Of a stretch of DNA of 64,000 nt, positions 41,385-45,984 are shown one piece after another (positions within the stretch are counted from its first letter, which is position 1; each line of letters opens with the position of its first letter). The notes under the pieces were generated by a model. That model was not told where the DNA came from and did not search any database. It worked only from the letters and a program-made list of their open reading frames with translations. The position numbers and the translations under genes are program-made. This stretch comes from Ruminococcus sp. (lineage in GTDB: Bacteria; Bacillota; Clostridia; Oscillospirales; Ruminococcaceae). The DNA lies in the NCBI GenBank assembly GCA_015066745.1, contig SVNW01000011.1, forward strand, positions 1 to 64,000, in the 5' to 3' direction.

Positions 41385-41508
41385 TGATAAAAAATGTGCA
41401 TCTGAAATTTTATATTTATAAAAAAGGTATTGATTAATCATAATTTTATCGATATAATTAATACAGTGATTATAGTTTCCGACTTATTTAAAATTAGGAG
41501 TGAAAAAT

Positions 41509-43422
41509 ATGGTAAAGAAAGCGAAACGAATGATAAGCGGATTATTGGCAATGATTACTGCTGTTAATATGTCATGCTTTATTCAGATCGAAAATGTCAG
41601 TGCATCATCTGAACTACTCAGAAGTACGTTTGAGGGAAATAATGATGGCTGGACTGCCCGTGGAAACGCAACAGTGGAATATACCGACAAAACAGCGTAT
41701 GAGGGCGGTTATTCGTTATATGTATCCGGAAGAACTGCCTCATGGAATGGTGCTATGATCGGGCTTGGTGCTGATTTTAAGGCAGGAAAGTCTTATGATT
41801 TCAGCGGTGCTGTTATGTATGATACAGGTGAAGCAACTGAAGAAATTTCTATGACTATGCAGTATAACAATGCGTCAGGTGAAGTGATATACGATCATCT
41901 TGCTACAGTCAGTGTGGAAAAAAATAAATGGACAACTGTTCTTGCAGAGAACTATACTGTTCCTTCGGGTGCAACTGATATTATATTGTACTTTGAAACT
42001 CCTGAAAGCACTATAGATTTTTACATTGATGAAGTAGTTGCATATGGTGAAAAGTCTCAGTCGGTTACACCGACTAAGAGAGGTCCCGGAGATATAAACG
42101 GTGACGGATATATAAATATAGTTGATCTTATTTATTTAAAACAAGGTATCATGGGTGAATTGAGTTTTGCTGATTTCAGTTATTATGCTGACCTTGACGG
42201 AAATAAAATTATAAGCTCAGCAGATATGACTTATATGGTGAAGTATCTTTTCGGTCAGATATCGGAGTTCCCTGCAACGTCTATGCCCGGAAATGAACCG
42301 CCGGTTGATGATAATTATGATGACAGTTATTCTGAAAATCTTGATGCAAAGACTTTGAAGATGTGTCAGGATTCCCTTTACCGTGTAGGTAATACCAAAA
42401 GACTTCTTGATAAGATACAGAAAGCAAAATCAGGAGAAAATGTGACAGTAGGTTATATAGGCGGATCAATAACAGAAGGCTCAAATGCCGGAGCACAGCT
42501 TTGCTACGCTAAACTTTCCCATCAGTATTTTGCAGATACATTCGGAACAGGAAGTAATGTCGGATATGTAAATGCAGGATTATCAGGTACTTCTTCAGTT
42601 CTTGGAGTACTCAGAGCAAAGAGGGATCTTCTGTCAAAATCTCCTGATGTGATATTTGTTGAGTATTCTGTAAACGATCAGGGAAGTCTGCCATATCAGA
42701 AATCGTTTGAGTCACTTGTGAAAAAATGTCTTATGCAGGAAAATGAACCGGCTGTTATAGTACTTGTTACACGTTCTCAGAGTGGTGGTTCATGTCAGCC
42801 TCAGATGGTTGCAGTAGCAGAAAATTATGACCTTGGTGTAATAAGTGTTGACAATGCTGTTTCAAATGCTCTTAAAACGGGTGTTATGACATGGGGCGAT
42901 TATGCAAGTGACCAGTATCACCCTCATAAAGAGGGGCACAAGCTTGTAGCGGAGTTTATAGGATATTATTACCGACAGGCACAGCTTAGTAAAAATCGCA
43001 GTACATCATATGAAATACCATCAACTGTAGTATATGGTGATGAATATGCAACTGCTGAAATGGTAAGTGTATCAGAACTTAAAGATTTCAATGCAGGTTC
43101 ATTCAAAAGCGGTACAAGTATAAGTTCATTCAGAGACGGCTGGACACACAGTAAAAATGGAAATACACCGATGACATTCAGTGTGGAAGGCAGAGGAATA
43201 TTCCTGATGTTCAAGTCAAATCAGACAGCATCTATGGGAACAGCGATAGTTGATGTAAACGGCAAACAATCAAAAGTAAGCAGTAATAAATTATATACAT
43301 GGGGCGGACCTGATGCAGATCTTGCGTATATTCAGGACAAGTCTGAAACTCTTAATGTATCTATATCTCTTGAGTCTGTATCAAGTGATTTTGAACTTCT
43401 TGGAATAGGCGTTATCAGATAA
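41509..43422 (+). CDS. Secreted cellulosomal SGNH/GDSL esterase: signal peptide, CBM22-like module, internal type-I-like dockerin, SGNH hydrolase, C-terminal beta module
   Basis: Dockerin repeats GDINGDGYINIVDLIYLKQGIM and ADLDGNKIISSADMTYMVKYLFG; GGSITEG nucleophile block, DQYHPHKEGH catalytic D-x-x-H block; N-terminal carbohydrate-binding-like domain; SD taggag supports ATG 41509. Confidence 0.88.
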   Translation: MVKKAKRMISGLLAMITAVNMSCFIQIENVSASSELLRSTFEGNNDGWTARGNATVEYTDKTAYEGGYSLYVSGRTASWNGAMIGLGADFKAGKSYDFSGAVMYDTGEATEEISMTMQYNNASGEVIYDHLATVSVEKNKWTTVLAENYTVPSGATDIILYFETPESTIDFYIDEVVAYGEKSQSVTPTKRGPGDINGDGYINIVDLIYLKQGIMGELSFADFSYYADLDGNKIISSADMTYMVKYLFGQISEFPATSMPGNEPPVDDNYDDSYSENLDAKTLKMCQDSLYRVGNTKRLLDKIQKAKSGENVTVGYIGGSITEGSNAGAQLCYAKLSHQYFADTFGTGSNVGYVNAGLSGTSSVLGVLRAKRDLLSKSPDVIFVEYSVNDQGSLPYQKSFESLVKKCLMQENEPAVIVLVTRSQSGGSCQPQMVAVAENYDLGVISVDNAVSNALKTGVMTWGDYASDQYHPHKEGHKLVAEFIGYYYRQAQLSKNRSTSYEIPSTVVYGDEYATAEMVSVSELKDFNAGSFKSGTSISSFRDGWTHSKNGNTPMTFSVEGRGIFLMFKSNQTASMGTAIVDVNGKQSKVSSNKLYTWGGPDADLAYIQDKSETLNVSISLESVSSDFELLGIGVIR

Positions 43423-43631: not shown

Positions 43632-44702
43632 ATGTCCAGAATAAGAGTGGCTGTAATTTTCGGCGGAGTTTCAAATGAATATGAAACATCGCTTCTGGCG
43701 GCGTCGTCAGTTATAAATAATATTGATAAAGAAGAATATGAAACGATCTGCATAGGAATAACCCGAAAGGGCAGATGGCTTTATTATCCGGGTACAGCAG
43801 AAGAAATACAGTATGACAGATGGAGTGAGAACTCTGATTGTATACCTGTAGCTATTTCACCTGATCCGAACAGAAAAGGTATCATAAAGCTTGAGAACGG
43901 AGAAGCATCATTTTCAAAAGTTGATGTTATTTTTCCTTTGCTGTACGGCAAAAACGGTGAAGACGGAACAATTGCAGGAATACTCAGGTGTACAGGTATT
44001 CCTTTTGTCGGAAGTGAGCTTATGGCATCAGCAGCCTGCATGGATAAGACTTACACACGAATGGTTCTCGGTTATAACGGAATAAAAACTTCAAACTGGC
44101 GTATGATGTTCAGAAACGAATTAAACGAACTTGACAGCAAGTGTCGTCAGTACTGCGATGAACTGTCATATCCTATCATGGTAAAACCGGCTAATTTCGG
44201 TTCATCTGAAATGCTCAGAACAGCAAACGATTACGATACTTTAAAAAATGCTATCAAACTTGCGCTTGCGCAAGATGAAAAAGTAGTTATTGAAGAATAC
44301 GTAGAAGGAAAAGAACTGCAGATTGCGGTTACAGGATACGAAAGACTTACAGTATCAGAACCGGGTGAAGTTATAGTAAAAAAAGACGACTTTGACTTCA
44401 ATGATATGTTCAGTCGAAGAGAATACATTATTCCTGCGGATATAAGCTGTGAAGTTGCAGAATCATTAAAACAGCTTTCAGTAAAAGTATATAAGCTTAT
44501 GGGCTGTACGGGAATGGCACGTATTGATTTTTATAAAACAGACAATGACGAAATAGTAATAAGTCAGATAAATACAGTTCCCGAAATTTCTGAAGGAAGT
44601 ATGTTCGTGAAGTTAATGGCTCTTTCCGGATATAATTTTACAGAACTTATAACAGAACTTATAACACAGGCTATAGTCAACTACGAAGGCAAGTCAGTGT
44701 AA
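43632..44702 (+). CDS. ddl: D-alanine--D-alanine ligase
   Basis: VIFGGVSNEYETSL, PLLYGKNGEDGTIAGIL, MVKPANFGSSEM, SQINTVPEISEGSMF; SD agggggg supports ATG 43632. Confidence 0.93.
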   Translation: MSRIRVAVIFGGVSNEYETSLLAASSVINNIDKEEYETICIGITRKGRWLYYPGTAEEIQYDRWSENSDCIPVAISPDPNRKGIIKLENGEASFSKVDVIFPLLYGKNGEDGTIAGILRCTGIPFVGSELMASAACMDKTYTRMVLGYNGIKTSNWRMMFRNELNELDSKCRQYCDELSYPIMVKPANFGSSEMLRTANDYDTLKNAIKLALAQDEKVVIEEYVEGKELQIAVTGYERLTVSEPGEVIVKKDDFDFNDMFSRREYIIPADISCEVAESLKQLSVKVYKLMGCTGMARIDFYKTDNDEIVISQINTVPEISEGSMFVKLMALSGYNFTELITELITQAIVNYEGKSV

Positions 44703-44728: not shown

Positions 44729-45523
44729 ATGAAAGAATACTCTATCGGAGTTTTTGACTGCACAGTAGGCGGTCTTGCTCTGGTAAATGAACTGAACTTA
44801 CTGCTGCCTTCCGAAAAAGTAATATATTTTTCAGAAAAACTTAAATCTGATGCTACAGCAGATGAAAAAGAATCTTTAAAAAATTGCACTATTGATAAGA
44901 TAGATTTTATTAAAAAATATAATGTAAAAGCAGTAGTTTCATGCTGTAGTGATATAAATTCCGCATGGGGCATGAAAATGCCTTTGACGGATATAACATA
45001 TTCGGGTACTTTTCTTCCGGCAGCTCAGTCAGCGTGTGCCGTTACAAGAAACAACAAGATCGCAGTTATGGGTTCTTCAAAGATAATAAAAAAAGGTTGC
45101 TATGCAAAGATAATCAAAAATATCAGACAAAATATTACTGTTATGGGTGTAGCGTGTCCATATCTTAGCGGTATGGAAGAAGATGATACCAACTTTATAA
45201 ATAAAGAGGATTTTATAAAGTCAACATCTGATATATTTGAGAAACTTCGTGAAGAAAAAGTTGATGTTGTTATAGTGGCAGATGGTTATTATCATCTTAT
45301 AACAGACGAGATAAAAAAACTTGCAGAAGGTTCTTTTGAACTTATATCTCCCTATGAAGAAACAGCAAAGAAGATATATAATGACTTGCTTGGGGAAGAT
45401 TTGCTGACAGACAGTGAAGAAACTGCTGATAATATAATTTATTTTGATGAAAATGAAGCTCTGCATAAAAAAGCAGTTTCATTTTTCCTCAAAAGAACTA
45501 CAGAATTAAAACCTATAGATTAA
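44729..45523 (+). CDS. Divergent glutamate racemase-like (Asp/Glu racemase fold) protein
   Basis: IGVFDCTVGGLALVNEL, LPSEKVIYFSE and IAVMGSSKIIKKGCYAKII resemble MurI, but catalytic motifs are altered (see findings). Confidence 0.7.
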   Translation: MKEYSIGVFDCTVGGLALVNELNLLLPSEKVIYFSEKLKSDATADEKESLKNCTIDKIDFIKKYNVKAVVSCCSDINSAWGMKMPLTDITYSGTFLPAAQSACAVTRNNKIAVMGSSKIIKKGCYAKIIKNIRQNITVMGVACPYLSGMEEDDTNFINKEDFIKSTSDIFEKLREEKVDVVIVADGYYHLITDEIKKLAEGSFELISPYEETAKKIYNDLLGEDLLTDSEETADNIIYFDENEALHKKAVSFFLKRTTELKPID

Positions 45524-45549: not shown

Positions 45550-45984
45550 ATGAAAGAAAAGTTTGACAAAGTTATCATAGAAATGAAAAGTGTTCAGTCC
45601 TCAGATGATGATACAGACAAAATGGAACTTATAACCGAGGGCAGATTTGCTTTTGAAGGGCTAAGATATGTTATAGAGTATAATGATTCGGAAGCTACAG
45701 GATTTGAAGATTCTGTTACTACTATAGAGGTCATAAGCGACAGCATGGCAATGATAAAAAGAACAGGAAAGTCTTCTTCCAATCTCGTGATAGAATCAGG
45801 CAAAAAGCATCATTGTCATTATGAAACTCCGTATGGTGATATGATGATCGGTGTTTATACTCACGAAATAAATAATCAGCTTGATATTACAGGCGGAACA
45901 TTATATATGAAATATACAATAGATATAAATTCGTCTTATGTTTCTGATAATGAGATATTTTTAAAAGTAAAGAAAGTAATATAG
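45550..45984 (+). CDS. DUF1934 / YwiB-like beta-barrel protein
   Basis: Small protein with YwiB-like pattern (GRFAFEGLRYVIEYNDSEATG...YETPYGDMMIGVYTHEI); follows the racemase-like gene. Confidence 0.65.
   Translation: MKEKFDKVIIEMKSVQSSDDDTDKMELITEGRFAFEGLRYVIEYNDSEATGFEDSVTTIEVISDSMAMIKRTGKSSSNLVIESGKKHHCHYETPYGDMMIGVYTHEINNQLDITGGTLYMKYTIDINSSYVSDNEIFLKVKKVI

Follow-up and report, generated by a model that had tools for sequence, protein, structure and literature searches.

Which function is left to a glutamate racemase (MurI)-like protein whose catalytic motifs have been replaced, and how does its host obtain the D-Glu of its cell wall? The question is raised by an open reading frame in the window (the whole 64-kb stretch of DNA analysed), which is located between two genes as follows:

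43632..44702, + strand: ddl, D-alanine--D-alanine ligase (PF07478/PF01820 and NF002528, scores above cut-off)
44729..45523, + strand: altered MurI orthologue, hereafter pseudo-MurI (264 aa, ATG start)
45550..45984, + strand: DUF1934 protein (PF09148, E 4e-33), encoded downstream of murI throughout the family

The ddl frame is open from TTG 43602, with ATG 43632 as the likely start. Gaps of 26 nt separate the pseudo-MurI frame from the ddl end and from the DUF1934 gene, and a ribosome-binding-like GAGG is found about 12 nt 5' of its ATG. An Rfam scan of the 64-kb window revealed no RNA element. Positions 41500-43422, read by eye, encode a secreted protein with an SGNH-hydrolase-like part and a dockerin-like repeat pair (GDINGDGYINIVDLIYL, DLDGNKIISSADMTYM), which suggests a cellulosomal, Ruminococcus-type organism as the host.

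The relatedness of the ORF product to MurI has been established by profile, sequence and structure comparison. Glutamate racemase models cover most of its length with scores far under their curated cut-offs (NF002035: E 2e-32, 112.6 bits against 328; TIGR00067: E 1e-24, 87.1 bits against 146.65), so that a full-length match above cut-off to a catalytic MurI family model is lacking. All 22 matches of a PDB sequence search are glutamate racemases (best E 1e-22), and identity to the aligned canonical relatives is 26-34%. The AlphaFold2 model, built from a 21-sequence alignment (pLDDT 90.5, pTM 0.90), has the MurI fold: its best 48 Foldseek matches in the PDB are glutamate racemases, with TM up to 0.89. 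The MurI-like layout, proposed earlier from the letters of the DNA, is thus borne out by all of these comparisons.

The active-site motifs were read from an alignment with 40 canonical MurIs. A row for B. subtilis RacE served there for numbering only; it is also present in the pseudo-MurI tree, with no bearing on the pseudo-MurI clade. Three blocks are replaced:

44756..44764, + strand: codons 10-12, D-C-T (canonical: D-S-G)
44942..44953, + strand: codons 72-75, C-C-S-D (canonical: A-C-N-T; C73 kept, Thr replaced by an acid)
45278..45292, + strand: codons 184-188, A-D-G-Y-Y (canonical: G-C-T-H-Y; Asp185 at the site of the second catalytic Cys)

In the first block Asp10 is retained and Ser11 is changed to Cys; the sister genome carries D-C-G, and two deeper relatives keep D-S-G. 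The second block, ACNT or ACGT in the canonical proteins, corresponds to C72-C73-S74-D75, with the first catalytic Cys at Cys73 and the invariant Thr at Asp75. In the third, GCTHYP reads ADGYYH: the catalytic Cys is Asp185, Thr is Gly186 and His is Tyr187. The invariant substrate loop PYG (41-43) is D-A-T, with Ser replacing Thr 116 and Ile replacing Thr 119. Pseudo-MurI therefore possesses one of the two catalytic cysteines of the CNT and GCTH motifs (C73, with Asp185 at the second position), and the substrate residues Ser11, PYG and the threonines of CNT and GCTH are represented by C11, D-A-T, D75 and G186. The earlier note had described the change of D-S-G to D-C-T and of GCTHYP to ADGYYH with loss of the second cysteine, and both descriptions hold in the alignment. 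Its replacement of ACNTA by SCCSD is right as to an altered block and one residue off in register, since the first Cys is kept; this retention, like the loss of the PYG loop and of Thr 116 and 119, had escaped it.

The altered protein has been found in four of 11 genomes of the genus: the window genome (G000), G152, G154 and G156. A184, D185, G186 and Y188 are invariant among the four orthologues (A-D-G-x-Y), position 75 is Asp or Glu in all of them, and the canonically invariant positions 17, 77, 116, 146, 147 and 184-186 are switched in 4/4. As A184/D185/G186 are identical in three independent orthologues, the motif change is not a sequencing error. Other positions vary: residue 73 is C, C, C, S (Ser in G154), residue 11 is C, C, S, S and residue 187 is Y, Y, N, H. 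There is hence no strictly conserved nucleophile, given Ser at 73 in G154 and the variation at 11. With one catalytic Cys and nearly all substrate contacts lost, racemase activity is improbable, and glutamate racemisation is probably absent from pseudo-MurI.

A second, canonical murI, whose presence had been left to be checked, was searched for above cut-off in the window genome (3.48 Mb, 92.5% complete) and in 11 genus genomes, a set with one 100% complete assembly and one of 4 contigs; none was found. No full-length D-amino-acid transaminase (D-AAT) was found in the genus, in which only partial matches of 37-48 bits to longer, BCAT-length proteins were obtained. In the own genome the PF01177 racemase profile has no match and DapF was not found; D-AAT, DapF and PF01177 racemases have thus been ruled out by profile searches as its D-Glu source. 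Because this genome is 92.5% complete, the case that other genes are absent comes chiefly from the congeners. PF01678 (diaminopimelate epimerase) was not found in G000, G151 and G152, and is present in other congeners.

That no other D-Glu source (MurI, D-AAT) was found agrees with the MurD2/MurL route. In this lineage MurD2 would ligate L-Glu to UDP-MurNAc-L-Ala, and MurL, with ATP, would epimerise the terminal L-Glu to D-Glu. Both genes, which the earlier note missed and which would make murI dispensable, have been identified outside the window, MurL through the gene adjoining murD:

L135 5813-7186 (contig C98 of G000): murL, after hydE, overlapping murD
L135 7183-8520 (contig C98 of G000): murD (MurD2-type), directly downstream of murL

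The MurL homologue matches NF041275 at positions 63-403 of 447 (E 4e-67). Its activity here is assigned by homology and context, since its score of 227 bits falls short of the Xanthomonadales-specific cut-off (700); no solved structure in the PDB is related to MurL by sequence. MurL is found near murD in G152, G156, G149, G153 and G151 as well. The gene directly 5' of murD belongs to one family in 13 of 14 loci of genomes devoid of murI and transaminase, and a MurL-family gene does not stand beside murD in genomes with murI or with a transaminase; in G109 murL is on a different contig. MurL is present in 14 of the 149 family genomes. In 27 of the 149 no MurI reaches the cut-off, and all 14 belong to these 27, an exclusion with a chance of about 1e-12 (hypergeometric, phylogeny ignored).

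The MurD sequences point in the same direction. MurDs of murI-less genomes have lower TIGR01087 scores than those of the others, and 25 of them, from both groups, were read in alignment with E. coli MurD (mature numbering; the reference gave a full-length match in the PDB). Residues 182/348 are Glu/Arg in all 18 MurDs from MurL genomes (murI-less and transaminase-less), the own one included, and Asn or Asp/Lys in the seven others, two of which come from genomes with no murI and a D-AAT homologue. The choice between D- and L-Glu is fixed by such residues, as E197D/R358K switches the Xanthomonas MurD2 (PMC8788868). The host genome appears to use the MurD2/MurL route for D-Glu, and from homology, gene order and residues we infer that MurL and MurD2 are active in it.

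Two further gene contents were observed in the family. G003, G126 and G099 have no murI and encode a full-length D-AAT homologue (225-232 bits, under the curated cut-off); the MurDs read from G003 and G099 keep the canonical residues. G072 (99% complete) is without MurI, MurL, a full-length D-AAT match and DUF1934, and has DapF.

A persisting glutamate racemase activity of pseudo-MurI, with an acid/base pair made up of Cys73 and Asp185 or of C11 and C73, is very improbable. The retained first Cys and Asp10 would agree with such an activity, as would a genome without canonical MurI. However, Cys73 is Ser in one orthologue and C11 is Ser in two, the substrate Thr and PYG are gone, and in MurI residue 11 and Cys73 face the pocket from one side, which counts against the pair C11 and C73. 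Moreover, seven congeners have neither a MurI-like gene at this place nor a canonical MurI anywhere, and MurL/MurD2 are present in those examined. The doubt expressed at the outset about a D-Glu-producing role was right.

The descent of the gene can be followed from its position. The ancestral order, seen in other genera of the family, is ddl-murI-DUF1934-argS (an argS-like gene last), with ddl as the first gene of the ddl-murI-DUF1934 cluster; in most MurL genomes ddl adjoins DUF1934 with no gene between. In G099 a 310-aa gene separates ddl from DUF1934, but its sequence is not MurI-like. In the four congeners the altered gene is found at the murI position (ddl-pseudoMurI-DUF1934), and the conservation of the order in related genomes, put forward as a check in the earlier note, is in this way established. 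The seven other genus genomes, without a MurI-like gene at the locus, form one clade in which the deletion is clean. In the protein tree the four pseudo-MurIs are a single clade (support 100/100) on a long stem branch, and in a five-gene tree of the genus their carriers stand on the deepest branches (82 and 91% support at the deepest two nodes). Pseudo-MurI is very probably a vertical descendant of the family murI, still in place. The history is simplest as one loss of the catalytic site before the genus diversified, followed by retention and one deletion within the genus. The identity of only 26-34% to canonical relatives could also be read as the mark of a MurI-family protein that does not derive from the local murI, either a separate paralogue or one gained by horizontal transfer. 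Such an origin is extremely improbable, as the ancestral position between ddl and DUF1934 is exact in 4/4 orthologues and the closest sequence relatives are the MurIs of related Oscillospiraceae. A re-purposed function, proposed earlier from the operon position, is probable; the position itself, being the ancestral murI site, is no sign of a new peptidoglycan role.

Pseudo-MurI is under purifying selection. In the closest pair (window genome and G152; 264 codons) dN/dS is 0.19 (bootstrap 0.13-0.26; NG86, estimates being rough at a dS of about 1), with no indels and no stops over a dS of about 1, whereas neutral simulation at half the observed divergence gave about 10 stops (minimum 2); on these grounds the gene is regarded as maintained. 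Canonical MurI pairs have a dN/dS of 0.03-0.10, two to six times lower, so the constraint is below that on an essential enzyme. This faster evolution and the long stem branch, together with the clean loss of the gene from seven congeners as well as from other genera with MurL, would be expected of a relaxed murI remnant heading for loss as in the sister clade. Decay is nevertheless unlikely: the interval of dN/dS is well under 1, stops and indels are absent, the gene is intact in all four species, which span the deepest splits of the genus, and the fold is modelled with high confidence.

The reading preferred here is that of a relic MurI which, after a switch to MurD2/MurL, was kept as a pseudoenzyme with a regulatory role; taken whole, it is moderately probable, and its history and non-racemase part can be held with high confidence. 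The need for free D-Glu would have ended under MurD2/MurL, and MurI would then have become dispensable. The altered protein would be the outcome of this switch in D-Glu supply: before the genus diversified, the racemase site would have been lost (Asp for the second Cys; no substrate Thr, no PYG loop), the altered MurI would have been kept by purifying selection as a non-racemase, and one clade of the genus would later have deleted the gene. As a regulator it might bind a small ligand in a remodelled pocket or a partner protein; the conserved pocket acids suggest a remodelled ligand site. The regulatory role is perhaps a secondary one already present in MurI, such as the gyrase inhibition documented in other bacteria.

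The pseudoenzyme or regulator role, favoured here over a new enzyme, stands at about even chances. With the same history, pseudo-MurI could have been neofunctionalised for another reaction or substrate at Asp10, Cys73, Asp/Glu75, Asp185 and Gly186. Asp10 is kept, position 75 is acidic, Asp185-Gly186 is invariant, and specific switched positions (17, 77, 116, 146, 147, 184-186) are common to the four orthologues. Besides, some members of the aspartate/glutamate racemase superfamily, EcL-DER and arylmalonate decarboxylase, work with a changed Cys pair, although we know of no member of this type with a change of Cys to Asp-Gly at the second position. Cys73 and the acids 75 and 185 could thus form a new catalytic site, counter to a strict sense of pseudoenzyme. 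A new enzyme is nonetheless rather unlikely, with Ser in place of Cys73 in G154, Cys or Ser at residue 11, a moderate constraint, and four loci that have no new metabolic gene in common. Put more broadly, the statement that MurI was replaced by MurD2/MurL and that the freed racemase became a new functional protein, be it a regulator that senses a ligand or an enzyme whose site is Asp-based, is one to which we give equal weight for and against.

MurI is treated as a drug target and as the nearly universal supplier of D-Glu. For cell-wall synthesis, however, a group of Ruminococcus-like gut bacteria appears to rely on MurD2/MurL, and racemase inhibitors are for this reason not expected to act on it. 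The retained non-racemase MurI allows a selectable non-catalytic role of MurI to be tested; if the reading is true, the lineage is a natural experiment which parts the catalytic from the other roles of MurI. In the literature searched, no report of MurL/MurD2 in Ruminococcus or relatives was found (subscription papers possibly excepted), nothing relevant on a MurI-less Ruminococcus, and no link of the term pseudoenzyme with glutamate racemase.

Compared with MurI/RacE (TIGR00067, EC 5.1.1.3), pseudo-MurI shares the full-length fold, the ddl/DUF1934 locus, Asp10, the first Cys and the VGGL and ACP motifs. It differs in the replacement of the second Cys by Asp185 and of the Thr of CNT by Asp, in the absence of the PYG loop and of threonines 116/119, and in a score below the curated cut-off; nor is it the likely D-Glu source of its host. 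As in EcL-DER and arylmalonate decarboxylase, the fold is kept while one catalytic Cys is exchanged, but pseudo-MurI belongs to another subfamily (PF01177 was not detected in it). MurI has been described as a DNA gyrase inhibitor in four bacteria, covering E. coli, B. subtilis (YrpC) and mycobacteria (PMC10886550); these are likewise MurI-fold proteins with a documented role beyond D-Glu supply. They are active racemases as well, and a gyrase link of the present protein would be by analogy only.

The rarely seen MurL/MurD2 route is on record for actinobacteria and for certain Gamma- and Alphaproteobacteria; relatives of low similarity occur in cyanobacteria, a fungus and an amoeba (PMC8788868, PMC5808125). 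As in Xanthomonas and Micromonospora (NF041275; PMC8788868), murL of the host lies directly upstream of murD, its MurD carries Glu182/Arg348, and MurI and D-AAT are absent. In contrast to these, the host is a Bacillota gut bacterium, outside the distribution given in PMC8788868 and PMC5808125, its MurL is distant (227 against 700 bits), and an altered murI persists. MurD2/MurL is the probable pathway of the host genome, and not the identity of the ORF at 44729-45523.
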